From Trichlorobacter thiogenes (GTDB lineage: Bacteria > Desulfobacterota > Desulfuromonadia > Geobacterales > Pseudopelobacteraceae): a stretch of DNA of 64,000 bases. This document shows positions 2,130-18,378 of this stretch, piece by piece; within the stretch, counting starts at the first letter, position 1, and every line of letters begins with the position of its first letter. The translations under genes and the position numbers were made by a program. Below the pieces are notes generated by a model. That model had not been told where the DNA came from and made no database searches. It worked only from the letters and a program-made list of their open reading frames with translations. The DNA is taken from NCBI RefSeq assembly GCF_900167465.1, contig NZ_FUWR01000001.1:303269-367268 (forward strand), given 5' to 3'.

Positions 2130-2942
2130 TTAAAACTTCAGTACGAGACCGTACACCGCAGTCACATCGGTTTCAGGTTTGGTCAGACCGAACTTGATAC
2201 CGGCATCAGCATCCAGATGGTCATTGATTTGGTAACGCAGACCGGTGAGGGCATAGACCGGTAGTTCACTCGATGCCTTATCCGGGTTAGTGGCAAGGCC
2301 GAAATCAGCCACTGCAAAGAGTCCTTTGGCAACTTCAGCCTCACCGGCGATGGAACCTGACCAGAGATTTCTGCGTTGCGAGCCGTCATCTTCACGGTAA
2401 TGGTGATACTCATAGCCCAGGTTAGCATGCAGGGCATATTTGCCATCCTCAAACTCCTTGGTGGCAATCAGGGTGCTGCCATACTGCCAACGGCCCTCCG
2501 ACAGACCGGCGCTGTATTTGCCGGTTGGCATGATGACACTGGGTTTGATAGCCAGGTTGATACCGCCCAGTTCTGCAAACTTGTATTTTACTTCCAGTGT
2601 CATGTCACCGAATCCATCGGCATTAGAAATAGTTCCGTCCACGTTGCTGCGTTCGTTGAACAGATAGGGAATGGCCAGAGAGACACCCAGATCTTTGTAC
2701 AAGCCGGTGGTAATCTTGACCTCTCCATCCACGGTATTGGTCTTGGTCGTGGAACCGTCAGAAGTATGTTTGTCATAGCCATAGGAGCCGTTCAGCTCAA
2801 TTTCAACCTTGCCGACATCAACGGTACCGGCGTCATCAGTGGCAAGTGGTGGGCCTGCCAGAGCCGGAATAGCCCCTGCCAGCAGACATCCCGCCAGTAA
2901 GCCTCGTACCAGCCTTTGCGTACATTTTCTGCTTTTCATCAT
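2130..2942 (-). CDS. Outer-membrane beta-barrel protein (MetA-pathway/phenol-degradation porin-like family)
   Basis: 270 residues with a Sec signal peptide (cleavage near ALA-GPP, about residue 29) and then [20 protein letters not shown], typical of the Phenol_MetA_deg / putative outer-membrane transporter family. Alternating hydrophobic strands continue to a C-terminal VYGLVLKF, ending in aromatic Phe as in outer-membrane barrels. It is the first gene after tandem cobalamin riboswitches and sits directly before cbiM. I infer a role as an outer-membrane pore or facilitator for cobalt or corrinoid. The start ATG (2942) is 8 nt after GGGAGG. The barrel assignment is good; the substrate is a guess from context. 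Confidence 0.75.
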
Positions 2943-2966
2943 ACATCCTACCTCCCTCGGGTTATT

Positions 2967-3120
2967 CAGATGAAGCGGTCTTCCGGCTCAAGGCTGCCTA
3001 CTTACCCACCTTCCCAGGAGTGCTCCCAGTGGTTGTTTCACTTTGCGGTGACGGGCTTTCGTTCCCTTTACGGCTGCGGGGCAGCGGGGGCATTTAACCC
3101 CTCTTCCTCGACCCCATCTG
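2967..3120 (-). promoter_or_regulatory. Cobalamin riboswitch, proximal copy of tandem pair (outer-membrane protein-cbiMNQO)
   Basis: On the minus strand: outer stem CAGATG/CATCTG (3115-3120 with 2967-2972), GGAAGAGGGG, a GCCCCGCAGCCGTAA core, an ACCACTGGG B12-box-like segment, GGGAAGG, and a GAGCCGGAAGACC end. No terminator lies between it and the ORF. The 3' end is about 25 nt from the start codon, so control is probably at the ribosome binding site (GAGGGAGG). It lies downstream of a terminator that belongs to the distal riboswitch. Confidence 0.88.
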
Positions 3121-3137
3121 TTTTAAATTTCTGCACA

Positions 3138-3176: not shown

Positions 3177-3245
3177 GTATTTAAAGTCGGATTAATAGTT
3201 TCACTCACCCTTTACCAGAGGGTTCAATTGAGTGCTTATAATCAT

Positions 3246-3409
3246 CGGCAGGTCTTCTGGCTTGCGATTCATCCTCCGGGCGCCTTCCCAATCAAATGAT
3301 CAGTGACGTTATTGCCCTTTGTCCTCGCTTACAGCGGCGGGTCCGCGGGGGATTCCTTCCGTACGGAAATACACCCCTCTTCCCTATCAAGCCCGTATGG
3401 GCACCGTGA
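3246..3409 (-). promoter_or_regulatory. Cobalamin riboswitch, distal copy of tandem pair (outer-membrane protein-cbiMNQO)
   Basis: Minus strand: CACGGTGCCCATACGGG 5' segment, GGGAAGAGGGGTG, a GCGGACCCGCCGCTGTAA core, GTCACTG, TTGGGAAGGC, and the 3' signature AAGCCAGAAGACCTGCC. The loop between GGGGTG and AATCCCC holds a small extra hairpin (TTCCGTACGGAA). A hairpin at about 3197-3240 (CACTCA..GAGTG and ACCCT..AGGGT) follows, then the terminator at 3138-3176, which fits transcriptional attenuation. Confidence 0.93.
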
Positions 3410-3423
3410 TTTTTTTATTATGC

Positions 3424-5981: not shown

Positions 5982-6028
5982 CACAATCATCCTTTCTTTG
6001 TCTAAACGCGAGACCAAACAACATACCT

Positions 6029-6171
6029 ATGAACAGGACGTCTTCTGGCTCCCAGACCCGTGGAGCCGCTGCCTTCCCGCTTCATGCGAAACAGTGGCAA
6101 CGGCAGGGAACTGCTCTGGTTACAGCGGCGCGTCCGCGACGGATTTTCACCGTCTTCCGTTTCCTGTTCAT
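6029..6171 (-). promoter_or_regulatory. Cobalamin riboswitch of metE
   Basis: Minus strand: closing stem ATGAACAGGA/TCCTGTTCAT (10 perfect pairs, 6162-6171 with 6029-6038), GACGGTGAAAATCCGTC, GCGCCGCTGTAA, the canonical GCCACTG box, GCGGGAAGGC and AGCCAGAAGACG. No terminator hairpin is visible between it and metE. The ribosome binding site is about 32 nt beyond the closing stem, so translational control is likely. Confidence 0.95.
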
Positions 6172-6258
6172 TCCTCTTTGCCAACAGATCTTGTTTTCTT
6201 GCCCGCCATATCACGCCGGGCCTGCAACACCTCCTTCAGCGGTATAATCAACCTCCGG

Positions 6259-6881: not shown

Positions 6882-6945
6882 CCGTATTCAAAGCCTGATG
6901 ATAACGTTTCACTCTTCCCAGACCACGGGGAACCTTTGAGCGCTA

Positions 6946-7100
6946 AGATCAGGCAGGTATTCCGGCTTGCGAGTCATCCTCCAGACGCCTTCCCGGCATT
7001 ATTGCTGCCAGTGGCATTGTGTCTTTTGTCGTCGCTTACGGCGGCGGGTCCGCGGGGGAGTTGCACCCCTCTTCCCTATCAAGCCCGTATGGGCACCATG
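6946..7100 (-). promoter_or_regulatory. Cobalamin riboswitch of the XRE-cupin regulator
   Basis: Minus strand: GGTGCCCATACGGGC, GGGAAGAGGGGTGCAACTCCCC, GCGGACCCGCCGCCGTAA, TGCCACTGGC box, CGGGAAGGCG, and CAAGCCGGAATACCTGCC at the 3' end. A hairpin at about 6903-6945 and the terminator at 6843-6881 follow, as in the distal copies of the tandem arrays. Confidence 0.94.
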
Positions 7101-7199
7101 ATCCGATATTCAGTTGTTATTGCTACGTACAACTACACAGGTGAGATACTCTTCAATCATCCATCCTGTCAATAAAAGACAACGTATTGTGTTGGTTCT

Positions 7200-9074
7200 C
7201 TAAAACCTCACCTGAACGCCGCCTAAAGCGCGGATGCCATCATCCGGATAGCCGAGATGGCTCTGATAGGCTGCATTAAACAGGTTGTCAACCTTGACGT
7301 AGATATCGGCCTTGGCGTTCTTGAAAGCAACCGGTTGCGTGATCCTGAGGTCTGCCGTCACGTATTCATCCAACTTTTGTGCAGGCAGGTTCTCAACCTG
7401 GCTGTAGCGTGCGCCTTCGTACCGTACGGTAGCCTCCAAACGGGTTTTCAAGGTCGGCACGGTATACTGTATCGTTGTCTTCAGTTTCAGATCCGGCGTG
7501 TAGGGCAGCTTTGTACCAAGATCTTTGTCCTTTGATTGTTGATAGACAAACGACAGGTCACTGCTGAGTCCTGCCATCCAGCTATATTTGGCGCTCAGCT
7601 CGATCCCCTGCCGTTCTGCGCCGGAGATGTTGATCGGACGGTAGATCAGATCAGTGCCACGGCGGGAAGTGATCAGATCCCAGGTGTCAACCCGGAACAG
7701 GGTGGCCTGAAGCTGTGATTCTTTGGCTGGTTTGTACTCAATAGACAGGTCGGAGGTCAGCACTTTTTCCACCTTCAGATCGGGGTTGCCCCGGCTCTGG
7801 TCAATGGAACCGTGGGTGCTCTGATACAGTTGTTCAAAGGTAGGGACGTTGGTTACATAGCCGACTCTTGCCTTTATCTGCCAGTTTTTGCGTATGCCCC
7901 ACCCCAGGCCCAGTGACCCTCCGGGATTGAAGCCGAAGTCATTGGTAACATCACCACGGGCGCCGACGGTTGCGGTGAAATCGCCAAACCGTTTGTCAAA
8001 CTGGGCATTCAGGCCGTTTCTGAACCGGTCGTGCCGACCGGCAAGGGTGTGTTCGAAGTTGTCGAATTCCGACATGCCGCCGATCCGTAACTCCCACTTT
8101 TCAGCGTCGTCAAGCCAACTGGTGTCCAGTTTCAGACCGACCTTTCGATCATCAAGGGTGGCGGTATAGCCCTGCTGAGACCGGTCCTTCAGGTTGAGCA
8201 GATCACTGTAGCTGTTCAGGGTGTAGGAGCCGGTTTCCTGTATGGCACCGCTTATCCGTCCGTCCAATGAACCTTTGCGGTACTGCTGCCGGGCGTCAGG
8301 CGTTACGTTGTCAGTTGGGCCGGGAATACCGTATTCTGCCTGATAGTAGCGCCCGTTGAGCTCGTATTTAGTGCCGTCTTTGGCTGTTCTGCCCCAGTTT
8401 GCACTGACATTCCCGTCGTTTCTGTCGCTATTTTGCCGCTTGCCGTCGCGATGGTTGAAGGAGCCTGACAACAACAGGCTGCCGTCACCCAGCTTCAGCG
8501 TCTGGCTGGCGCCGGTCTGTATAAGTCCGTAGGATCCTCCTGCTGCCTTGACACTGCTGGACAACGCTTCGCCCTTGCCTGCTGCCTTGATTTCCCTGGT
8601 CACAATGTTGATGGCGCCATCACTGCCACCCGGTCCCAGCCAGACCGGCACCGGTGGCTTGAAAACCGTTACTGATTCAATGATGTCAACCGGAATGCTG
8701 TTCAGATCCATGCTGCCTGACTGGTTGCTGTTCAGCGGCCTGCCGTTCAGCAGTAGCAGAACGCCGCTGGATTTTCCGGAACCCCTGATGGAGATCCGGG
8801 AACCCATGCCTGAAGTGGGATACACCTCTACACCGGGCATGGTTTTTAGTATTTCTTCCACGTTTGAGTGGTTCCGTTTGACGATCTCGGTTCGGCTGAC
8901 GCTGTTGACATCCTGCGGATAGTTTTTGATATACTCTTCCAGCCGGTCAGCGGTAACCACCACCTCGCCCATGCTGTAGGCAGAAGGGGCCGGCTGCTTT
9001 GTCTCTGCATAAACAGCCCCTGAAATTAGCGGTACAACGGTCAATGCGTGGGTTAGCAGTATTTTGTAGTTCAT
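7200..9074 (-). CDS. TonB-dependent receptor, BtuB-like
   Basis: 624 residues. Signal peptide (about 1-23, ending VYA), a TonB-box/plug start (MGEVVVTADRLEEYI), and a plug with MPGVEVYPTSG, ISIRGSGKSSGVLLLLNGRP and SDGAINIVTRE. A barrel follows, ending in LGGVQVRF with terminal Phe. It would take a large ligand across the outer membrane, powered by TonB. It is last in the run headed by tandem cobalamin riboswitches, 17 bp after tonB, so a corrinoid or related tetrapyrrole is the likely ligand. The family is sure; the ligand is inferred from context. Confidence 0.88.
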   Translation of the reverse strand: MNYKILLTHALTVVPLISGAVYAETKQPAPSAYSMGEVVVTADRLEEYIKNYPQDVNSVSRTEIVKRNHSNVEEILKTMPGVEVYPTSGMGSRISIRGSGKSSGVLLLLNGRPLNSNQSGSMDLNSIPVDIIESVTVFKPPVPVWLGPGGSDGAINIVTREIKAAGKGEALSSSVKAAGGSYGLIQTGASQTLKLGDGSLLLSGSFNHRDGKRQNSDRNDGNVSANWGRTAKDGTKYELNGRYYQAEYGIPGPTDNVTPDARQQYRKGSLDGRISGAIQETGSYTLNSYSDLLNLKDRSQQGYTATLDDRKVGLKLDTSWLDDAEKWELRIGGMSEFDNFEHTLAGRHDRFRNGLNAQFDKRFGDFTATVGARGDVTNDFGFNPGGSLGLGWGIRKNWQIKARVGYVTNVPTFEQLYQSTHGSIDQSRGNPDLKVEKVLTSDLSIEYKPAKESQLQATLFRVDTWDLITSRRGTDLIYRPINISGAERQGIELSAKYSWMAGLSSDLSFVYQQSKDKDLGTKLPYTPDLKLKTTIQYTVPTLKTRLEATVRYEGARYSQVENLPAQKLDEYVTADLRITQPVAFKNAKADIYVKVDNLFNAAYQSHLGYPDDGIRALGGVQVRF

Positions 9075-9091
9075 CAGATCTCCTGGTGGAT

Positions 9092-9835
9092 TTAATAGAG
9101 CCGGAAGACCACCGGCATGGTGATCTCGGCGGCAACCGGCGGTTTCGGAAAAGGGGCCACACTCTTAACTGTTTCTACGGCGCTATTGTCCAGCAGCGTA
9201 TGGCCGCTGCTCTCTTTGACATGGATTGAGCGGACGCTGCCGTCTTCAGCCACTACAAATGCCAAAACGACTCTGCCGCTCCAGCCCCTGCGGCGTGCAA
9301 GCTGGGGATAGGCAAGATGTTGTATGATCAGGTCGCGAATATAGGTGAAATGCGCGTTGATATAGCGTTGCTGCGCCTTTGCCTCTGTTACCGCTCCCCC
9401 ACCACCTGAGGGGGGCGACGACGCTGCTACCGTTTTTTTACCTGCCGATTCCCCTGTGGATGGCGAGGTGCCCCCATGAGCACCGGTCTGTGCGGCTGCC
9501 GGTTGACGTGACTGCGGCGCCGCGGCGCTTTGCGGTGCTGCTGTCCTTTCCTGCGCTACAGCGCTGCTCTGCTGCGGAGCTGGTGCAGGAAGCGGCTTCT
9601 GTTGAGGCATGGGAACCGGTGCGGCCTTCTTTGGGGGCGGAGCCGGCTTCGGCAGCCCGGCACCGGCTGCAGGCGCGGCTTTCGGTGCAGCGGTGACCAT
9701 CCCGGGCCGTAGCGAGGGGGCCAGAGTCAGGTCGATCATAACCGGCTTTGGCTGCTGCAGGTGTGGACCGGCGGCAATCAATAGGCCGACAGCGCTCAGG
9801 TGCAGCGCCAGAGAGAGACCGGTCCATTTGATCAT
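9092..9835 (-). CDS. TonB family energy transducer
   Basis: 247 residues. N-terminal signal-anchor helix (about 4-22, LSLALHLSAVGLLIAAG), a long Pro/Ala-rich periplasmic spacer (about 35-165), and a C-terminal TonB domain (RRGWSGRVVLAFVVAEDG, then VKESSGHTLLDNSAVETV). I chose ATG 9835 because GAGGTG precedes it and the membrane anchor begins there; a longer frame starts at 9892 inside the CobN-like gene. Lying between an exported CobN-like protein and a TonB-dependent receptor, it probably serves the local ExbB/DUF2149 complex. Confidence 0.88.
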   Translation of the reverse strand: MIKWTGLSLALHLSAVGLLIAAGPHLQQPKPVMIDLTLAPSLRPGMVTAAPKAAPAAGAGLPKPAPPPKKAAPVPMPQQKPLPAPAPQQSSAVAQERTAAPQSAAAPQSRQPAAAQTGAHGGTSPSTGESAGKKTVAASSPPSGGGGAVTEAKAQQRYINAHFTYIRDLIIQHLAYPQLARRRGWSGRVVLAFVVAEDGSVRSIHVKESSGHTLLDNSAVETVKSVAPFPKPPVAAEITMPVVFRLY

Positions 9836-9845
9836 CGGAGCACCT

Positions 9846-12800
9846 CTACCGTCTCCTGAATCCCCAGCCAACCAACCCGACCACCCCTGCAAACCCCAGC
9901 ATAAACAGCCAGGGGATCGGGGCCGAGGCAGCGCCGCTCTGTTGCCCGCCGGTTTCTTTCATCTCAAACCCTTCCACCTGTTTACCCTTTGCCGCCTTGC
10001 CGCTGCCGTCCGGCGCTGCACCGTTTGCCCCCTGTTTTGATGGTTGTGCGGTTGTCTGCGCTGCGGACTGTTGCGCCTTTTGTCCGCTTTTGCCTGCATC
10101 AGGCTGTTTCATATCCTGCAGAGCCTGTTTAAAGCCGGGTACCAGCGGCTTCAACCCCGGCACGGAAAGCAGGGTGGCAGTGGCAAATTCAGTCAGTTGC
10201 GGGTTGTTGCAGGTGTGGTCGCAGCAGGCCAGCCCCACTTCCTGAACCGTTTTTGCGTATTCTTCGGCCAGCTTTTCAACCACTTGGCTGTCCGGTTTCC
10301 AGTACTGTTTGCGCACCGTCTCCAGCATCCGGGCCACCACCGACTGGTAGGCCCACATGTTCTTTGATTTGCGGAACATATCCTTGATGCCCAGGCCGTT
10401 GCGGTCAACTACCCAGGTTTCATGCATCTCCTGCCATTTGGCGGCATCAACCGCCTCCGGCACGGTTACCTGCCAGCCCCAGAGGTGCTCGGTCACCTTG
10501 TCCACAAACCGCGCCCCTGCGTACCCCTCCTTCATCATCGCCTTGATCCACTCCGGGTTTAAGTAGCGGGAACGCATCTCCCGTCCCATCATCTTTTCAA
10601 GGGTCTCCTGAACCGGCTTCTTCGGGTTGGTCATGTTGGTGACATAGACCTCCGGGCTTTTGCCGTCCACGGCCCGGATCGCCATGGCGGTTCCCCCCAG
10701 GTACTGGAAGAAGTCGTCATTATCCAGGGTGGCAATGACATTGGAAGAACGGCTGTGAATGGCAATCTTGCTGCCGGACAGGGCGTTCTTCAGCAGGGTT
10801 TCCCCCAGTTTCCTGCCGCCATGCTCGGCGCTGTCCCCCCAGAACCCCTGGCCGTAGAGGTGGCTCATCCTCATAAAGTAGACATCAATCACCTGTTTTT
10901 CGTTATCCCAGGTGTTGGAGGCTACAATCACCTTGTCCAGATTGGTGCCGTAGGCCCCGGACGGTTCGGTAAAGATGCGAACCGAGGCCAGCCGCTGCGC
11001 CTTGTCCTCCGGCACCCCTTTTTCCAGCAGCATCTTTCTGGTCTTCTCAACATTGCGGCGGATCAGGTTATCCTCTTCCTGCTGATCCCGTGCCGTACTG
11101 ACCGCCTTGTCCAGCAGATCCATCAGGTTGGGAAACAGGTCGCGATAGAGACCTGAGGGGACCATGGTAACGTCAATCCGTCCCCGTCCCAGTTCGCTAC
11201 GGGGAATCAGTTCCACCCCCTGCACCCGTCCCCGCTCATCCCACTTGGGGCGCACCCCCATCAGGTACATGATCTGCGATTCCATCACCCCTTCATGGCG
11301 GATGGTCTCCGTTGCCCAGATGTTGAAGGTCAGTTTGTCCGGGTAGACGCCGTGACGTTTGCGGTAGCCCTCAATCAACTCCTGTGCCAGCTTTTTCCCG
11401 GTGTTGTAGGTGCCGGGTGAGGGGACAAAGGCAGGGTCAAAGGAGTAAAAATTCTTGCCGGTGGGGAGCGAATCCGGGTTCCTGATCGGGTCATTGCCAC
11501 TACCGGAAGGGATATAGCGCCCTGCCAGGGCAGCCACAAATGAATCAAGTTCCCGCTTGCCGCTTGCCTCAATGGCCTGCTCCATGGCAGCTATCCGTTT
11601 TTCCCGCTCGGCAGGGGCAAGGTTTTTCTCAATGGCAACCACCGCCTCTGCCGTACTGCGGCGGTAGCCTGCTTCCGGAGATCTGCCAAAGGTGTGCAGA
11701 CCGAACGGCGAGATCTTTTCGCCGATCTCCCTCAGGTAGTCGTCCAGCTCTTCCACCTGCTCAGGGGTGCTGATGCCGGTCAGTTTCAGATCGGTCAGCA
11801 TCCCGGTCTTGCGGGCCAATGCGTTGATATCCTCCAGCTTTGCCGCTGCAAGCTGCAGTGACTTCTCGCGGGCGGCGTTGTAGTCGCTGATTAATGCCGC
11901 AAGCTGCTTTGCCTCACGATTCATCCCTGACTTGTCCAGGGGAGGTGTCATGTAGTCAATAACCGTTGCCATGCCGCGCCGTTTGGCCTGCAGCCCTTCT
12001 CCCACGTCATCCACGATGTAGGGGTAGATGTTGGGCAGATCCTGAATCAGCAGTTCCGGCGGGTCTTCGCGGGTAAATCCCACCTCCTTGCCGGAGAGCC
12101 ACTCATGGGTGCCGTGGGTGCCGATATGGGCCACGGCATCGGCCTTGAAGCCCCGTTTCAGCCAGAGGTGGAAGGCGATATACTGATGGTGCGGGGCGAT
12201 ATGGATATCGTGGTACAGCTTCTTGATATCCTGCTCCCACCCCCGTGACGGCTGGGGGGTGAAAAGGATATTGCCGTAGCGGACACCGGGCAGCACCAGA
12301 AATTTATTCCCCTTCTGGTCGCTCCAGGTCATGATCTGCGCCTTGTCCGGCTCCCCCCAGTCCTTGACCACTGATTTGCGGAATCTGTCTGGCAGTTCCA
12401 TGAACCAGCTTTTGTAGACCTGGACCGGCAGCAGTACGGCATGGCCGCTACGGGCCAGCCGGTCGATCTCCGCCGGGGCCCAGTTGCCGATGTTCCGGCC
12501 ATAGGCATGGACCTCATCAAAAAGCTGCTCTTTGGAAACAGATCTGGCGCCAGCATCGTACCCTTCGATCTTTAAGCGGTTCAGGAGTTCATACAGGCTT
12601 TCCGGCATGACATTCAGGTAGGCGGCCCCGATATTCTGCTTGCCCGGCGGGTAGTTGTAGTAGATCAGGGCGATATGCTTGTCGCGGTTCTGCTTCTGCT
12701 GCAGGGCCAGCCAGCGTTTGACCCGCTGGGTCAGCCGTTCGATCCGTTCCGGTATCGGGCGGGTCTCGACATACTCCATGCCGCTGGCCTTGTCCTTTAC

Positions 12801-13943
12801 CCGCTCCTTGCTGGCCACCACGGTGGGCTGGATAATACCGGCCAGCTCCGGCAAACCGATGGAAGAGCTGCGTTCAAAGATATCCAGACCCACCGGCGAT
12901 TTTTCCCATTCCTCCTGTGACTGGGAATGCAGGCTGATGGCATCAATCACCGGCACACCAAGCCGGGTCAGGATCGGCACGGCCCGTTGGGGTGTGATGC
13001 CAACCTTTAAGGCAATCCCCACCACCACCTGCACCCTGGACTTGCCGTTTTCGTCAAAGAAAAATTGCTCTACAGATTTTTCCGATGGATAGCCAAAGAC
13101 CGGCAGCACATTAAGGCCCTGTTTTTCCAGCGCATCAATCAGGCTGTCCAACAGCGCAGTTTCGCCGTTATCCACCAGGTTTTTAAAGAAGGGGATGCCG
13201 ACCCAGGGGCCGGGCCTGCTGCGGTACAGGCGCTGATACTCTGCAAAACCGGTGACGGTCCGGTGGCCGTCTTTCAGATAGATACCGAACTGGGGAACCT
13301 GAGCAGGCGGCGCTGCCTTTACGGCTATACCGCAATCCCGCTGCAGCAGATACAGCACCATGTTGACGCAGTTTTCCAGTCCCCCCTGCTGCTGATAGGC
13401 AGCAACGGTCCGGTCGTTTTGCAGACCAAGTTCCTGGTCATCCTTGCCGTACATGCCACCCACGGCGTAGACCTTCATCCCCTGTCGCATCATGGCCTGC
13501 AGGGATGCCTTGAACGGCTCCAGACCACGGCGATCCATGATATGGACGACACTGAACCCTTTGCCTCCAGGCTGTAACGCCGGGAGCGCTGCGGCATCCC
13601 CCTTGGTCAGCACCTCAAATCGCACCCTGCCGGTCAGCTCGGGGTGGCGCTCCCTGATGGCCTGCACGGTTTTAACTGCCAGACTGCTGTTGTAATCTCC
13701 CAGGATCAGACGGACCTGGGCCGTTGTCCCGGCTGGGGCTGCGCTGTTGGAGGAAAATGGAAACACAAGCATTATCAACATGGTTGCCAGAATCAGCCAC
13801 GCATTGCTTCGATTCCAGCTCAAGGATGATCTCAAGGCGGCGAGGAATTTGGCGACGCAGGCGTACACGAAGTACGTTGAGGAGCCAACGACGAGCCAAC
13901 GAAGAGAGTGCCTTGAAATGGAATCGAAATTATTCCGGAACAT
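9846..13943 (-). CDS. Exported, membrane-anchored CobN-like protein (magnesium/cobalt chelatase large-subunit family)
   Basis: 1365 residues with the CobN/Mg-chelatase H-subunit domain across about 90-1270 (FNIWATETIRHEGVMESQ, GVRPKWDERGRVQGVELIPR, HIGTHGTHEWLSGKE). Unlike cytoplasmic CobN it has an N-terminal hydrophobic export segment (about 49-66, LILATMLIMLVFPF) and a C-terminal helix plus Arg tail (WLFMLGFAGVVGLVGWGFRRR), with a low-complexity spacer before it, so the bulk should be periplasmic. Residues 7-45 are encoded by a repeat element inserted in frame (13810-13926). The ATG at 13943 overlaps the DUF2149 stop by 14 bp; a start near residues 56-59 cannot be excluded. No CobS/CobT is visible, and the periplasm lacks ATP, so classical chelation is doubtful. 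Binding or remodelling of corrinoids is my inference. Confidence 0.88.
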   Translation of the reverse strand: MFRNNFDSISRHSLRWLVVGSSTYFVYACVAKFLAALRSSLSWNRSNAWLILATMLIMLVFPFSSNSAAPAGTTAQVRLILGDYNSSLAVKTVQAIRERHPELTGRVRFEVLTKGDAAALPALQPGGKGFSVVHIMDRRGLEPFKASLQAMMRQGMKVYAVGGMYGKDDQELGLQNDRTVAAYQQQGGLENCVNMVLYLLQRDCGIAVKAAPPAQVPQFGIYLKDGHRTVTGFAEYQRLYRSRPGPWVGIPFFKNLVDNGETALLDSLIDALEKQGLNVLPVFGYPSEKSVEQFFFDENGKSRVQVVVGIALKVGITPQRAVPILTRLGVPVIDAISLHSQSQEEWEKSPVGLDIFERSSSIGLPELAGIIQPTVVASKERVKDKASGMEYVETRPIPERIERLTQRVKRWLALQQKQNRDKHIALIYYNYPPGKQNIGAAYLNVMPESLYELLNRLKIEGYDAGARSVSKEQLFDEVHAYGRNIGNWAPAEIDRLARSGHAVLLPVQVYKSWFMELPDRFRKSVVKDWGEPDKAQIMTWSDQKGNKFLVLPGVRYGNILFTPQPSRGWEQDIKKLYHDIHIAPHHQYIAFHLWLKRGFKADAVAHIGTHGTHEWLSGKEVGFTREDPPELLIQDLPNIYPYIVDDVGEGLQAKRRGMATVIDYMTPPLDKSGMNREAKQLAALISDYNAAREKSLQLAAAKLEDINALARKTGMLTDLKLTGISTPEQVEELDDYLREIGEKISPFGLHTFGRSPEAGYRRSTAEAVVAIEKNLAPAEREKRIAAMEQAIEASGKRELDSFVAALAGRYIPSGSGNDPIRNPDSLPTGKNFYSFDPAFVPSPGTYNTGKKLAQELIEGYRKRHGVYPDKLTFNIWATETIRHEGVMESQIMYLMGVRPKWDERGRVQGVELIPRSELGRGRIDVTMVPSGLYRDLFPNLMDLLDKAVSTARDQQEEDNLIRRNVEKTRKMLLEKGVPEDKAQRLASVRIFTEPSGAYGTNLDKVIVASNTWDNEKQVIDVYFMRMSHLYGQGFWGDSAEHGGRKLGETLLKNALSGSKIAIHSRSSNVIATLDNDDFFQYLGGTAMAIRAVDGKSPEVYVTNMTNPKKPVQETLEKMMGREMRSRYLNPEWIKAMMKEGYAGARFVDKVTEHLWGWQVTVPEAVDAAKWQEMHETWVVDRNGLGIKDMFRKSKNMWAYQSVVARMLETVRKQYWKPDSQVVEKLAEEYAKTVQEVGLACCDHTCNNPQLTEFATATLLSVPGLKPLVPGFKQALQDMKQPDAGKSGQKAQQSAAQTTAQPSKQGANGAAPDGSGKAAKGKQVEGFEMKETGGQQSGAASAPIPWLFMLGFAGVVGLVGWGFRRR
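13810..13926. repeat. Palindromic repeat element, copy 1 (in frame within CobN-like gene)
   Basis: 117 bp with imperfect terminal inverted repeats: CGATTCCAGCTCAAGG at 13810-13825 and CCTTGAAATGGAATCG at 13911-13926. The interior contains GGCGGCGAGGAATT and GACGCAGGCGTACACG. The reverse complement of 18202-18322 matches it closely along its length. 117 bp is exactly 39 codons, so the CobN-like frame stays open across it. It carries no transposase; it resembles a MITE- or REP-like element. Confidence 0.85.
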
Positions 13944-14268
13944 AGATCACCTTCCCGTCTTTAAGTTGATAGGCAGTGCCCAGCCGTTCACCCTCGCCGG
14001 AAAGCCGCTTGTCGGTAACCTTACGGACCTTGATCTCCTTGCCCTTTTTGCTGATTACCTCAATCCTGCCGTCGGCAGCCTTCTTGGTGATGGTTACCTC
14101 TGACTTCGGGTCCATCAGGTCCAGCATGTTGTAGGCCATGAACAGGGCGATCATCATGCTGACGATAAAGACCACGCTGACGTCAAACAGGTTGGCAACG
14201 CCGGAGATCGGGTCTTCCAGCGGTTCGTCGTATTTTTCAAAGCGGTTGCGGCGTTTAAGATAGCGCAT
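13930..14268 (-). CDS. DUF2149 protein, ExbD-like partner
   Basis: 112 residues with one transmembrane helix (about 25-50). The helix begins GVANLFDVSVVFIVSMMIALF, with an Asp at its N-terminal end placed like the essential proton-carrying Asp of ExbD/TolR. A short charged periplasmic tail follows. The family is DUF2149 (no assigned function). It sits between an ExbB-like channel and the CobN-like gene, with 14-bp overlaps on both sides, so I infer it is the ExbD-equivalent stator/rotor subunit. GGAGGAGCG precedes the ATG. Confidence 0.8.
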   Translation of the reverse strand: MRYLKRRNRFEKYDEPLEDPISGVANLFDVSVVFIVSMMIALFMAYNMLDLMDPKSEVTITKKAADGRIEVISKKGKEIKVRKVTDKRLSGEGERLGTAYQLKDGKVIYVPE

Positions 14269-14851
14269 CGCTACGCTCCTCCTGCACCGGTTCGCTGGGG
14301 CCGCCCAGCCGTTGCCGCAGCATCTTCTCGGTAAAAAACTCCATCTCCCGCAGGTCGGCCCGCACCCATTTTTCCTTTACCAGCGACATCAGGTAGGCCA
14401 GCACGCTGCAGCCCAGACCGACCACCACGGTGGTAAAGGCGGTAACCATGCTGCCTGCCATCTTGGGCATGTCACCCTGGGCCAGCGATGAAAGGGAGAT
14501 TCCCATCGGGATCAGGGTTCCCATCAGGCCCAGCGCCGGTCCGACCCGGATTACAAAACGGATTTTATCCAGAGATTTGATCTGGGCCAGCTCTGCGGTC
14601 TGCAGCAGCCGTTCTGCCTGCAGATCAAGATCCGGCGCTGCTCCGGCTTCTTCCAGCGTTGCAGTCAACTGTTTCTGGAAGCGTTCAAGGGGGATTGAGG
14701 TGTCACGACGGCGCTCAATCCATTCCCTTAAAAAACCGCCGGAAAAGATGGCAACCCAAGCCACCAGCAGCACCAGTCCGGCCACTACGGGAAACAGCAA
14801 CACCGATGAAATCAGATATAAAAAGGTCTCAAGACCGGCCAGAATGTTCAT
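14255..14851 (-). CDS. MotA/TolQ/ExbB proton-channel family protein
   Basis: 198 residues. Three hydrophobic segments: about 10-36, about 105-130 (GPALGLMGTLIPMGISLSSL), and about 137-165 (MVTAFTTVVVGLGCSVLAYL), matching the TolQ/ExbB core with its long cytoplasmic loop after helix 1. It uses proton-motive force in the inner membrane. The start overlaps the upstream DUF2162 stop by 4 bp. It likely works with DUF2149 and TonB or directly with the CobN-like protein. Confidence 0.9.
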   Translation of the reverse strand: MNILAGLETFLYLISSVLLFPVVAGLVLLVAWVAIFSGGFLREWIERRRDTSIPLERFQKQLTATLEEAGAAPDLDLQAERLLQTAELAQIKSLDKIRFVIRVGPALGLMGTLIPMGISLSSLAQGDMPKMAGSMVTAFTTVVVGLGCSVLAYLMSLVKEKWVRADLREMEFFTEKMLRQRLGGPSEPVQEERSDALS

Positions 14852-15549
14852 TTGGTATCTCCTTTGCGCATAAAAAAACCTGCCAGCAGCGCCGCAGCCA
14901 GCAGTATCACCAGCAGCAGCGTCTGGCTGTTGTTCCCGCCTGCTGCTGCCGGTTGCAACTCCTTCAGAAATGAGCCGTACATCCCCTTGGCCTGTTCAAC
15001 CTTGGCCGGAAGAAACAGTGAGGCGATGAAGTACAGTCCGATGGTGATCATGGCCAGCCCCAGGGCCGGGATGCTTCCCTCGCTTTTCCCGGACTGTGTA
15101 AGCAGCATCACCAGCAGGGTCATGACGGTAAAGGAGATGCCCAACACCACCCCCACGGCCCAGGGCAGCAGCGGCAGGCTGTGCAGGGCCGTCCAGGTGG
15201 AAAAGGTCATGGCGGTCAGGCAGACCGGGCAGGGGATCAGTAATGCCAGAGAAGAACCGGGGGTGCATGCTGTTCCTGGCTTGCGTACCAGCCAGCCGCC
15301 CCAGAGGATCATCCCCAGCGCCATAACCCCATGCAGCCAGGGACCGCCCTTGAGCAGCGGTTCAAGCAGCTTCAGCAACCGCTCGGCCAGCAGGGCAATC
15401 AACTCAAACAGCAGCAGATACAGCCCCAGAGTCAGTGCGATTCCTTTGCGGCTGACCTGACCATATCCCAGTCCGGCGCCGGTCTTGACGGCAAAGATTC
15501 CCAGACTGAACAGGGTGCCACCGACCCAGAGCGCGATATTCAGATCCAT
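14848..15549 (-). CDS. DUF2162 predicted membrane transporter
   Basis: 233 residues, six to seven hydrophobic helices, family DUF2162 (predicted transporter, function unknown). A CPVC pair in the loop-helix (ALLIPCPVCLTAMTFS) could be redox-active or bind metal. I chose ATG 15549 because AAAGGAAG is 6 nt upstream; a TTG at 15564 overlaps the receptor stop. In this run it accompanies the ExbB-like, DUF2149 and CobN-like genes, a grouping I recognise from Geobacter and some methanogens. Confidence 0.78.
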   Translation of the reverse strand: MDLNIALWVGGTLFSLGIFAVKTGAGLGYGQVSRKGIALTLGLYLLLFELIALLAERLLKLLEPLLKGGPWLHGVMALGMILWGGWLVRKPGTACTPGSSLALLIPCPVCLTAMTFSTWTALHSLPLLPWAVGVVLGISFTVMTLLVMLLTQSGKSEGSIPALGLAMITIGLYFIASLFLPAKVEQAKGMYGSFLKELQPAAAGGNNSQTLLLVILLAAALLAGFFMRKGDTK

Positions 15550-15560
15550 AACGCTTCCTT

Positions 15561-17774
15561 TCAAAACTTGAAGCCCAGTTCTGCGTAACAGGAACGGCCC
15601 GGTGCCAAGGAGGAAGAGTAGTAATGCTCGTCAAACAGATTGGTGACAGACAGCGAGGCGGTTGCCCAGGCGGTAATCTTGTAACGCAACTTCAAGTCCA
15701 CGGTAAAATAGGGGTCATAGCTGCCCTGTACGCCGTTGACGGTGTCGGTGTTGGTGTCGCTGGAATAGCGCTTACCCACATAGCGACCGGTTGCCGTTGC
15801 TCCAAAACTGCCGTAATCCAGATCAGCCCCCAGATTGAACATATGTTCCGGTACATCGGTTACCCGTTTGCCTACGGTTGCGGGAACCGCACTGTTTTCC
15901 CTGATGGTCGCATCGGTGTAGGTGTAGTTGGCAAACAACCGCAACAGTGAGTCAAATTTCTGTTCTGCCTCCAGCTCTACCCCCCTGCTTTCGGCCTTGC
16001 CCGCGTTGGCCTTGTCTTTCCAGGTGGGGGTGGTTGAGGTGCTGTAGATCAGGTCGCTGATGTAGTTCTCAAAATAGGTGGCGGTAAATTTTGAACCTTG
16101 CCAGAGCCGCTGGCTGACACTTGCATCCCAGGAGATGACGGTTTCCGGTTTCAGGTTGGGGTTTCCGGCGTAGGTGGTGCCGCTGGAGGTGGTCCAGGTG
16201 CGGTAGAGATCATACACCGTGGGCGCACGAAATGCCTTGCCGCCGGATAGTTTGAACGTGGTTGTGTCAAACGGTCTGTAGACCAGCGCGCCTTTGGGGC
16301 TGAAGGCATCGGCGCTACGGGAATCGTAGGTTTGGGGATAGCCGACGCTGCCGACCTGATTGGCGTAGCCGTCGAAGGTCTCCCACCAGTCCTGCCGAAA
16401 CCCGGCAAACAGGGTCAGCTTATCCAGCAGTGCTATTTCACCCTCCGCAAAGAGAGCAAAGGTGCGGTCGGTTCCCTTTGATTCGTAGCTCAGGGCTCCT
16501 TTGGAGTTTTCATCCTGCCAGTTAGAGAGATTGTGTTCTCTGGAATGGGACCAGCCGCTGCGGTAGGCACCACCCACGGTCAGCAGATGCTTATCCAGAA
16601 TTGGTATTGAAGCCTGAATATCGGCGTTAAAGGCGGCTGCCGGGGTGTCGGACAGCTTGCCCGGCCCGCCGTTGCGGGTACCGCCGTTGGGCGGCGCAGC
16701 CGAGGTGGGGGTGGTTCCCCAACTGCTCATCTGATCAAGATAACCCAGGTTCAGCTTGTACTTGACCGTTGCCAGTTCTGTTTCAGCGCCAAATCCGTAC
16801 AGGTGCTGATCACTGCCGCCATTCCCCCCCAGAAAGGATGCCTCCCGTACTGTGCCGTAGCTCCAGACTTCAGCGCCGCTGCTGTTGCGCAGGTAGGTGG
16901 CCGGATTATCATAGGAATATTCGCCGGTTGACTTCATAAAAGATAGCTTGAGCTTCGTATTGGAAGGTAGTTCGAGCTCTGCCTTGGCGGTCAGGTTGTC
17001 CTGCCAGGCACCGTTTTTGCCTTTGTCTCCCAGCCGATAGCGGGTTGCGCCGGTATAATCAGTGGTCGGCTCCCAGCCGGTGATACCGGCAGTCGGCTTG
17101 CTGCTTTGTACGTTGCTGTCACTGCGGTAGCCGTCGGTGGCCAGATAGTCGTTATGCAGGTAGAGTTTGATTCTTCCCAGATACTTGTCACCGTAGGAGG
17201 CGGCAACCCGCCTGGTATTTTGCATGCCGTTGGGGCTGTCCAGGGCAAAACCGTAACCGCCAGTCAGGGTTAGTTCCTGCTTTTCAGGCATTCGGGTGAT
17301 CATGTTGACCACCCCCCCCATGGCATAGCCGCCGTAGAGACTGGAGGCCGGACCTTTAACCACTTCAATCCGTTCAAGGCTGCCGGGCGAAACACCTACG
17401 GACACCACCGATCCGGCGTAAGGACTGTTGATGGTAATGCCGTCCAGCATCACCAGCGTGCGGGACTGCCCCGGAATGCCGCGCAGGGTAATGGCTGACA
17501 TCCGGTCCATCATCCCCTTGCCCCGGGTTGTCATAACGCCGGGAATGGTATTAATCGCCTCGTCCACTGTTGTGATAGTCCGTTTTTCCATTTCCTCCTT
17601 TGTTACAACAGAGATGCTGCCCGGTGCGGTTGCCAGATCCTGTTCGGTTCTGGTTGCCGTCACGACAACCTGTTCCAGCCTTGCCTCACCTGGAGCGGTT
17701 TCCGCCTGCGCTGATCCGCACACCGCCACGACCAATGCCATCACTACGGCACATTGTTGCCTGTTCTTCTTCAT
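15561..17774 (-). CDS. TonB-dependent receptor, BtuB/FepA-like
   Basis: 737 residues from MKKNRQQC. Signal peptide ending AQA (about residue 25), a TonB-box region (EQVVVTATRTEQDLATAP), plug motifs (TIPGVMTTRGKGMMDRMSAI, ITLRGIPGQSRTLVMLDGI, GPASSLYGGYAMGGVVNMIT), then a barrel ending AELGFKF. ATG 17774 lies behind a GAGGGGGG site; the longer frame to 17936 runs through the riboswitch aptamer and is not translated. It is the first gene after tandem cobalamin riboswitches, so it probably imports a corrinoid. Confidence 0.9.
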   Translation of the reverse strand: MKKNRQQCAVVMALVVAVCGSAQAETAPGEARLEQVVVTATRTEQDLATAPGSISVVTKEEMEKRTITTVDEAINTIPGVMTTRGKGMMDRMSAITLRGIPGQSRTLVMLDGITINSPYAGSVVSVGVSPGSLERIEVVKGPASSLYGGYAMGGVVNMITRMPEKQELTLTGGYGFALDSPNGMQNTRRVAASYGDKYLGRIKLYLHNDYLATDGYRSDSNVQSSKPTAGITGWEPTTDYTGATRYRLGDKGKNGAWQDNLTAKAELELPSNTKLKLSFMKSTGEYSYDNPATYLRNSSGAEVWSYGTVREASFLGGNGGSDQHLYGFGAETELATVKYKLNLGYLDQMSSWGTTPTSAAPPNGGTRNGGPGKLSDTPAAAFNADIQASIPILDKHLLTVGGAYRSGWSHSREHNLSNWQDENSKGALSYESKGTDRTFALFAEGEIALLDKLTLFAGFRQDWWETFDGYANQVGSVGYPQTYDSRSADAFSPKGALVYRPFDTTTFKLSGGKAFRAPTVYDLYRTWTTSSGTTYAGNPNLKPETVISWDASVSQRLWQGSKFTATYFENYISDLIYSTSTTPTWKDKANAGKAESRGVELEAEQKFDSLLRLFANYTYTDATIRENSAVPATVGKRVTDVPEHMFNLGADLDYGSFGATATGRYVGKRYSSDTNTDTVNGVQGSYDPYFTVDLKLRYKITAWATASLSVTNLFDEHYYSSSLAPGRSCYAELGFKF

Positions 17775-17798
17775 TACGTTCCCCCCTCGGGTTAATGT

Positions 17799-17964
17799 AC
17801 AGATGGAGCGGTCTTCCGGCTCAGGGCTACCTACTTGTCCACCTTCCCAGGATAATATCCCAGTGGCTGTACCCTCCCCGGAACTGGGTTGGGTTGGACG
17901 TTCGTTCCCTTTACGGCTGCGGGGCAGCGGGGGCATTTAACCCCTCTTCCTAAACTCCATCTGT
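17799..17964 (-). promoter_or_regulatory. Cobalamin riboswitch, proximal copy of tandem pair (TonB receptor-CobN run)
   Basis: Minus strand: closing stem ACAGATGGAG/CTCCATCTGT (17955-17964 with 17799-17808), GGAAGAGGGG, GCCCCGCAGCCGTAA, GCCACTGGG box, GGGAAGGTGG, GAGCCGGAAGACC. It is close in sequence to the copy at 2967-3120. The receptor start is 25 nt away with no terminator between, so translational control is likely. Confidence 0.92.
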
Positions 17965-17978
17965 CTGAAATCATGCAT

Positions 17979-18016
17979 AAAAAAAGTCCGCTTGCGCATA
18001 CCACGCAGGCGGACTT
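17979..18016 (-). terminator. Intrinsic terminator between tandem cobalamin riboswitches
   Basis: Minus-strand stem AAGTCCGCCTGCG / CGCAAGCGGACTT (one mismatch) followed by seven Ts. It has the same position and nearly the same stem as the one at 3138-3176. Confidence 0.9.
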
Positions 18017-18088
18017 ATCGTATTTAAAGTCTGGCTCATCAAGGCGCACTCACCCTTTACCAGAGGGTTCAATTGAGTGCTAAGATCA

Positions 18089-18364
18089 TCGGTAGGTCTT
18101 CTGGCTTGCGATTCATCCTCCGGGCGTCTTCCCAATCAAATGATCAGTGACGTTATTGCCCTTTGTCCTCGCTTACAGCGGCGGGTCCGCGGGGGATTCA
18201 TCCTGATTCCATATCAAGGCGCAAGCTTCGTTGGCTCGTCTTCGACTCCTCGACGTACTGCGTGTACGCCTGCGTCGTCGAATTCCTCGCCGCCTTGCTA
18301 TCATCCTTGATCTGAAATCAGGGGTACACCCCTCTTCCCTATCAAGCCCGTATGGGCACCGTGA
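18089..18364 (-). promoter_or_regulatory. Cobalamin riboswitch, distal copy, interrupted by a repeat element
   Basis: Minus strand: GGTGCCCATACGGGC, GGGAAGAGGGGTG, then a 121-bp palindromic insert, then AATCCCCCGCGGACCCGC, GTCACTG, GGGAAGACG, and AAGCCAGAAGACCTACC. Outside the insert it is almost identical to 3246-3409. A hairpin (CACTC..GAGTG, ACCCT..AGGGT) at about 18045-18080 and the terminator at 17979-18016 follow. The insert is in the hairpin loop between GGGGTG and AATCCCC. Confidence 0.88.
18202..18322. repeat. Palindromic repeat element, copy 2 (inside riboswitch)
   Basis: 121 bp bounded by CCTGATTCCATATCAAGG (18202-18219) and CCTTGATCTGAAATCAGG (18305-18322), an 18-bp inverted repeat with two mismatches. 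Its reverse complement aligns with 13810-13926. It replaces the short loop that the sister riboswitches carry at the same point. Confidence 0.88.
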
Positions 18365-18378
18365 TCCATGTATTTAAC

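Follow-up and report, generated by a model that had tools for sequence, protein, structure and literature searches.

A CobN-like cassette behind cobalamin riboswitches in Trichlorobacter thiogenes, a possible cobalt/corrinoid counterpart of the HmuS de-chelation machine

Results

A CobN-like operon lies behind tandem cobalamin riboswitches

We analysed a stretch of 64,000 nucleotides from Trichlorobacter thiogenes (assembly GCF_900167465.1, contig NZ_FUWR01000001.1, positions 303,269 to 367,268; hereafter the window). Its minus strand carries an operon built around a CobN-like protein of the chelatase superfamily, with the order, from 17774 to 7200, TonB-dependent receptor (TBDR), DUF2162, ExbB-like, DUF2149, CobN-like, TonB and a second TBDR. 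All genes named in an original prediction, which had been made from the sequence alone, were present at this site, and their Pfam identities agreed. The first outer-membrane receptor (15561..17774; PF00593/PF07715) had been listed as an open reading frame (ORF) from 17936; this position falls within the second of two upstream riboswitches, so the ATG at 17774 is the plausible start. It is followed by a polytopic inner-membrane DUF2162 protein with a PCPVC (CxxC) motif (14848..15564; PF09930, 208 bits), by a MotA/TolQ/ExbB-like proton-channel subunit equivalent to HmuU (14255..14851; PF01618, 37.1 bits against a cut-off of 22.9), and by a DUF2149 protein equivalent to HmuV, which has a single transmembrane (TM) segment with the Asp of an ANLFD motif at its start (13930..14268; PF09919, 113.9 bits). 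The CobN-like protein, of the BtuS type, spans 1365 aa (9846..13943; PF02514, CobN-Mg_chel, 1043 bits), and translation may in fact begin some 40 codons further downstream, at the start annotated for the T. lovleyi protein. TonB (9092..9892; TonB_C, PF03544, 70.9 bits) and a BtuB-like second receptor (7200..9074) complete the set; the best NCBIfam match of the latter, TIGR01779 (TonB-B12, E 8e-40), stays under the cut-off of that model. No operon gene matched the HmuY family in Pfam.

Two cobalamin riboswitches (RF00174) lie directly upstream on the same strand, as the original prediction of riboswitch control would have it. The distal one (18073..18378, 88.8 bits) has a long peripheral insertion, and the proximal one (17790..17974, 64.7 bits) ends about 15 nt before the receptor ATG; both exceed the gathering threshold of 31.5 bits. 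A hairpin followed by a T-run lies between them (17984..18016, minus strand) and is likely the intrinsic terminator of the distal riboswitch. A hairpin scan gave a 13-pair stem on the plus strand, and the hairpin count there was not above that of shuffled sequences. The proximal riboswitch likely acts by translational control, which suggests a tandem of one transcriptional and one translational switch.

The window also holds other cobalamin riboswitches: six occur within 15.5 kb, all on the minus strand (2957-3131, 3230-3423, 6020-6208, 6935-7116, 17790-17974 and 18073-18378), and eight in the whole genome. Tandem pairs precede a porin-CbiM group and the cassette, and two riboswitches flank an HTH-cupin gene upstream of metE. 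Elsewhere in the genome (C15:34367; L116 4368-6872), a cobalamin riboswitch lies ahead of the anaerobic ribonucleotide reductase NRDD, the usual B12-independent substitute.

Most assessable cassettes of the phylum lie with cobalamin riboswitches

Cassettes were located through DUF2149, so that CobN-like genes lacking this neighbour fall outside the sample. Of 297 genomes from the phylum, 36 contained DUF2149, 32 of them with scores above the cut-off. In nearly all fetched loci its neighbours included an ExbB-like and a CobN-like gene, usually joined by DUF2162 and a receptor. Some loci were fragmentary, and the 'Marinifilum' label of one (L089) is at odds with its place among Nitrospirota proteins. 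Among 22 cassettes that could be assessed, namely those with an intact upstream side and with the window counted among them, 18 had a riboswitch on the same strand, either inside the cassette or at most 1.5 kb upstream. The expected number was 0.18, calculated from the riboswitch numbers of the cassette genomes on the presumption that riboswitches are evenly spread. One further cassette had a riboswitch 3.95 kb upstream. A Nitrospirota-type copy carried two RF01482 AdoCbl riboswitches and a Comamonadaceae copy an RF00174, and no cobalamin riboswitch was found at three true hmu loci with HmuY. This riboswitch control in most assessable cassettes of a phylum is new, and by sequence the cassette counts regularly among the B12-regulated genes of that phylum and of neighbouring ones.

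The nearest copy lies on plasmid pGLOV01 (pSZ77) of Trichlorobacter lovleyi SZ. It is the same cassette behind the same tandem riboswitches (L103 9689-9880 and 9981-10155), and its CobN-like protein is 92% identical; it differs in being plasmid-borne and in having an extra canonical exbB-exbD pair before tonB. Among the searched genomes related to that of the window, DUF2149 was missing from one in the same genus, three in the family, two in the order and five in the class. Together with the plasmid copy, this absence suggests that the cassette has moved horizontally.

The CobN-like protein belongs to a clade separate from CobN and HmuS

A hydrophobic segment lies near the N-terminus of the CobN-like protein and a second one, with basic residues after it, at the very C-terminal end. 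Both segments are common to all members of the cassette group including HmuS, and the C-terminal one is absent from true CobN and BchH. The sequence thus predicts an exported, membrane-anchored protein with a periplasmic-type topology, in line with what had been proposed. Its PDB matches were HmuS (9d26, E 4e-140) and CobN (9uk9, E 2e-134), and its scores stayed under the NCBIfam cut-offs for CobN. An AlphaFold model of the protein body was too poor for use (mean pLDDT 59.9).

In a tree of 36 proteins, true CobN formed one clade (support 100/99) and three HmuS proteins another (100/100). A third branch (95/92) united the riboswitch-linked proteins with a Zur-type-like group and a nickel-linked protein, and a larger quick tree of 47 proteins agreed with this for the window's clade, which there had 33 members. 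These phylogenies place the CobN-like clade apart from both CobN and HmuS, which is a new finding.

Motif comparison pointed in the same direction. The window protein contains HIGTHGTH and LDNDDFFQYLGG, and its HIGTHG matches the HFG(T/A)HG of HmuS with the catalytic His-538; since this motif is found superfamily-wide, it is not diagnostic for HmuS. The published marks of the HmuS family are Met-79, His-254, His-1209 and a Met-rich insertion (PMC12583661). At the position of the HmuS motif LSLDHxxEFMGG, which contains His-1209, the window has LDNDDFFQYLGG; an Asp takes the place of this His in every listed member of the window's clade and in most CobN, and the proteins with His here are HmuS, BchH and one from Azospirillum (L108). 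The stretch corresponding to the Met-rich insertion (domain IV) has 56 aa with 1 Met in the window, versus 264 aa with 31 Met and 159 aa with 9 Met in two HmuS. The heme-ligand motif HGR of the neck, with His-254, occurs in 3/3 HmuS, is LKVG in the window and is absent from its clade; the N-terminal domains aligned too poorly to place Met-79, the heme ligand of the head. By these published marks, with no Met-rich insertion, no HGR and Asp at His-1209, the window protein is not HmuS, although it may work like it. The residue opposite the catalytic His (Asp or His), the Met-rich insertion and HGR together draw a concrete dividing line between the heme type and the proposed corrinoid type.

No CobS/ChlI or ChlD partner was linked to the operon, for which the original prediction had noted the lack of CobS/CobT; PF01078 matches in the genome were unlinked, and no ChlI/ChlD-type subunit in the genome scored above the TIGR02442 cut-off. 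A CobT-like VWA ORF was found elsewhere (C29:653762-654508; L133) in a mobile-element-like cluster, beside a protein with a zinc-finger-like CHC sequence, and probably does not belong to a cobaltochelatase. A ChlI-ChlD-like AAA/VWA gene (L121 17900-19867) lies about 5 kb from the cassette of a Nitrospirota-type cobalamin cluster, and its product could be an ATPase partner for a CobN there. A plasmid of Marinobacter sp. M3C (L106 5314-9516) encodes a CobN-like protein with a signal-peptide-like start, without a C-terminal anchor and without ExbB-like or DUF2149 genes nearby; its surroundings hold BtuF/BtuC/BtuD-like genes, cbiA, cobO, cobyric acid synthase and bluB.

The ExbB-like/DUF2149 pair accompanies the CobN-like gene

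In the ExbB-like protein, P104, G107, G110, T111 and A137 are conserved. DUF2149 had been called ExbD-like on account of the Asp at its helix start; this Asp (D23) is kept in 48 of 49 relatives, but there was no match to PF02472 (ExbD), and in a profile comparison only 17 columns, the TM/Asp segment, aligned with ExbD at 1% probability. That the cassette has a proton-channel-like pair of its own, as originally suggested, was supported by relatives in which the pair stands beside canonical genes. Canonical exbB and exbD occur besides ExbB-like/DUF2149 in eight loci (L103 of T. lovleyi, L053, L054, L056, L059, L060, L063 and L065), and likewise in L066 of the zinc-like group; the additional canonical genes of the eight loci are a new observation. 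The Comamonadaceae locus L127 has ExbB-like, DUF2149 and CobN behind its riboswitch, and the stretch seen there contains neither a TBDR nor TonB. These eight loci and L127 tie the pair more tightly to the CobN-like gene than to TonB, and we infer that it powers the chelatase. Near the window's TonB, the ExbB-like gene of the cassette is the sole one of its kind, and one canonical ExbD lies elsewhere in the genome.

Every one of the 36 DUF2162 homologues that extend to the PCPxC motif retains it. The motif would fit metal or electron transfer, and DUF2162 is a candidate cobalt permease or electron conduit. Its AlphaFold model was too poor for use (mean pLDDT 59.7), a fold search returned nothing significant (best E 1.2), and a literature search found no paper with the word DUF2162.

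Corrinoid genes surround the cassettes

In 14 relatives, the cassette contains or adjoins a gene of 544-774 aa with a CbiZ-like domain. Four of these proteins were run against Pfam, and all four consisted of Peripla_BP_2 (BtuF type) followed by CbiZ, with N-termini resembling signal peptides. CbiZ hydrolyses the aminopropanol linkage of cobinamide and pseudocobalamin. The tie between CobN-like cassettes and exported CbiZ-domain proteins, BtuF-CbiZ fusions in the four checked, is new, and it offers the best clue that a corrinoid is the ring being processed and that this happens in the periplasm. An apparent DUF2149/BtuF-CbiZ fusion in L078 reads through a stretch of N and is not claimed. Among riboswitch-poor relatives, L121 adjoins CbiQ/CbiO and BtuC/BtuF-like genes and L089 adjoins CbiB; in L083, a riboswitch, a receptor, a porin and CbiM lie upstream on the same strand. 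The corrinoid or cobalt link of the original prediction was thus strengthened by riboswitches, CbiZ-domain genes and neighbours of the CbiM/CbiQ/CbiB kind.

The genome of the window encodes an anaerobic cbi pathway with CbiK, together with CbiM, CbiQ, CbiB and CobQ/CobD. Since CbiK and the cbi genes are present, CobN is not needed for biosynthetic insertion, and a role as biosynthetic chelatase was dropped. Another riboswitch-led stretch of this genome encodes an exported CbiZ along with a receptor and BtuF-BtuC-BtuD, and for this reason we no longer consider the cassette a substitute for BtuFCD here. Most carriers of the cassette within the phylum make the corrin ring (CbiD in 27/30 vs 10/32 outside the class). 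Genomes reached through Nitrospirota-type loci had CbiD in 0/7, and CbiL in most of ten such genomes, so the presence of CbiD does not decide between cobalt supply and salvage.

Relatives of the core keep company with different metals

In Pseudomonas aeruginosa, PA1922-PA1925 resembles the cassette in having a TBDR, a CobN-like protein, an annotated ExbD proton-channel protein and DUF2149; it differs in being Zur-controlled and responding to zinc starvation (PMC4542158, PMC9431628; the latter for DUF2149). On plasmid pRUNSL01 of Runella slithyformis (L126 4808-12842), the order hypABF-TBDR-NicO-like-ExbB-like-DUF2149-CobN-like-hypCDE forms part of a [NiFe]-hydrogenase cluster. The NicO-like protein has weak NicO/DsbD_2 matches and a HAFEADH motif, and this hyp-linked set, a new observation, is probably a nickel version of the machine. 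Since the surroundings of the core track a metal (iron with HmuS, zinc in the Zur type, nickel in the hyp-linked set), the comparison speaks for a shared function in releasing metal, which in the window's cassette would be cobalt.

Discussion

The original prediction knew of no described mechanism for such a set, and this no longer stands. HmuS, encoded in hmuYRSTUV of Bacteroides thetaiotaomicron and Porphyromonas gingivalis, is an anchored CobN-like protein that removes iron from heme; its cryo-EM structure is available and His-538 is essential by mutation (PMC12583661). HmuU and HmuV have already been reported as ExbB/ExbD-like (PMC10100974). The hmu operon and the window's cassette share a TBDR, an anchored periplasmic CobN-like protein with a TM segment at both ends, a polytopic protein, an ExbB-like protein and DUF2149, and the HxGTHG histidine is common to both proteins. 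They differ in that the cassette has no HmuY and has DUF2162 in place of HmuT, cobalamin riboswitches and corrinoid neighbours, and in that its CobN-like protein belongs to a separate clade without the Met-rich insertion, HGR or His-1209. True CobN of the CobNST complex belongs to the same superfamily and mostly has Asp at the same active-site position, but it is cytoplasmic, is driven by ATP through CobS/CobT, lacks the C-terminal TM segment and forms its own clade.

The set itself has been seen before. The cobN-exbBD-tonB cluster of T. lovleyi was noted in 2012, with CobS/CobT missing and its role unknown (PMC3403914), and Mesle et al. in 2023 described cobalamin riboswitches ahead of hmu-like operons without HmuY in Bacteroides and guessed at a cobalamin role (PMC10100974). 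Two CobN-like proteins of B. fragilis are called BtuS, a name traced to Rodionov 2003 (PMC6460266). The hmu-like operons of B. fragilis (PMC10100974) resemble the cassette in being riboswitch-led and in having receptors, a likeness drawn from their description rather than from sequence. By the definition given with that name, BtuS is a third type, a CobN-like protein outside CobNST/ChlHID that is B12-regulated and TBDR-linked (PMC6460266), and the window protein answers this description. The Hmu work, the 2012 paper and the 2023 paper reduce the novelty of the set accordingly.

We tentatively favour the view that the cassette is a cobalt/corrinoid type of the HmuS-class machine, which takes metal out of tetrapyrroles in the periplasm, and that the cell produces it when adenosylcobalamin runs short, although we put this at slightly less than an even chance. 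TonB-driven receptors would import corrinoids, or another cobalt-tetrapyrrole, into the periplasm, where the anchored CobN-like protein would hold the ring in the cleft common to CobN and HmuS. The machine is probably driven by protons: the ExbB-like/DUF2149 channel would supply the conformational work that the AAA+ proteins CobS/CobT do for cytoplasmic CobN. Cobalt would then be extracted by the CobN reaction in reverse, as HmuS does with heme iron, and would enter the cell through DUF2162 and/or CbiMNQO for use by CbiK and the complete anaerobic pathway of the genome. The nucleotide loop may first be trimmed, in relatives, by exported CbiZ-domain proteins, which are BtuF-CbiZ fusions in the cases checked. 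We further infer that the CobN-like protein itself draws on the proton motive force; HmuS turned over in vitro with NADH and without an ExbB-like/DUF2149-type pair (PMC12583661).

Several points weigh against de-chelation of corrinoids. Cobalt in corrins is kinetically inert, and we know of no enzyme able to extract it without breaking the ring. Useful corrinoids should not be destroyed by the product of a gene that is turned on when B12 runs short, and CbiZ speaks for ring salvage. Uptake in this genome is already provided for by BtuFCD, which stands behind a different riboswitch. Two cassettes (L050 and L054) lack a riboswitch of their own although their genomes have riboswitches elsewhere. 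The ExbD profile match of DUF2149 is confined to one short segment, and DUF2162, HmuT and the NicO-like protein of the nickel locus have no mutual profile similarity. For the window's clade the proposal draws on comparison, with the biochemistry coming from outside the clade.

It is also quite possible, if not what we would expect, that no metal is removed and that the CobN-like protein is an oversized periplasmic corrinoid carrier, which accepts the ring as the receptor delivers it, offers it to CbiZ so that the loop can be removed, and then hands it on, either to BtuFCD or to a translocon made of DUF2162, ExbB-like and DUF2149. Such a carrier suits the riboswitch logic of salvage, the CbiZ-domain genes of the 14 relatives with their BtuF-CbiZ fusions, and the exported CbiZ, BtuFCD and TBDR encoded elsewhere in this genome; a carrier or hand-off role was also put forward for P. 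gingivalis HmuS, which binds heme and takes part in heme metabolism (PMC13227078). A carrier would, however, have little use for a conserved chelatase cleft, in which HIGTHGTH and DNDD are kept, and BtuF is already available for hand-off. HmuS was shown to be a de-chelatase by mutating the shared His (PMC12583661), and the nickel and zinc relatives accompany metal rather than ring functions (PMC4542158 for zinc). The reverse reaction, a periplasmic cobaltochelatase that inserts cobalt into scavenged metal-free or mis-metallated corrinoids for repair or activation, could be argued from the CobN-like active-site Asp, the CbiM/CbiQ neighbours and the Nitrospirota copy clustered with the AAA/VWA gene and precorrin methylase-like genes. 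We consider it improbable: the window genome has no linked AAA+ partner over the cut-off, there is no periplasmic ATP, CbiK is present, a natural supply of metal-free corrinoids is doubtful, and HmuS works in the direction of removal.

That the cassette is a true hmu operon obtaining iron from heme seems very improbable. The gene layout is alike, the best PDB match is HmuS, the highest-scoring models for the first receptor are heme/siderophore receptors, and a B. fragilis BtuS1/BtuS2 double mutant grew poorly on heme iron (PMC6460266); the missing HmuY and Met-rich insertion, the unconserved His-254 (HGR) and His-1209, the separate clade, the cobalamin riboswitches and the cob/cbi surroundings all speak against it. 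Another explanation concerns one part only and is compatible with any of the others: the ExbB-like/DUF2149 pair might merely energise the cassette's TonB for corrinoid uptake, with no link to the CobN-like protein. Mesle et al. give HmuU/HmuV this role (PMC10100974), and the solitary ExbB-like gene near the window's TonB, with a canonical ExbD elsewhere, would fit. We nevertheless find it less likely than not in view of the eight loci and L066, which have canonical exbB and exbD in addition, and of L127, where the pair and CobN follow a riboswitch and neither a TBDR nor TonB occurs in the stretch seen.

Beyond the corrinoid type, CobN-like, ExbB-like and DUF2149 could form a general proton-driven metal (de)chelatase, in which a TonB-family-type motor replaces the CobST/ChlID AAA+ motor and receptors and permeases are swapped for each metal (iron in HmuS, zinc in the Zur type, nickel in the hyp-linked set, cobalt in the riboswitch type), acting on periplasmic metal-tetrapyrroles or other chelates. 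We regard this wider scheme as possible, though speculative. BtuS has been named since 2003 and is still annotated as cobaltochelatase; the family can now be tested. If cobalt removal were true, it would be the first enzymatic corrinoid demetallation known to us; if not, the cassette would be a new periplasmic machine for corrinoid salvage. Both outcomes also matter for the question of what the ExbB-like/DUF2149 pair of the hmu operon powers, and for the B12 economy of a close relative of a PCE-dechlorinating bioremediation bacterium.

Two minor observations concern other corrinoid-related loci. In the riboswitch-led CbiZ-BtuFCD stretch of the genome (contig C29; L115 3972-5865), the TonB-dependent receptor is split into plug and barrel ORFs, perhaps by a frameshift or a sequencing error. 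A Phenol_MetA_deg (PF13557) beta-barrel gene stands directly before CbiM both in the window (2130-2942) and in the Nitrospirota locus L083 (2250-3158), and its product is a possible cobalt or corrinoid porin.

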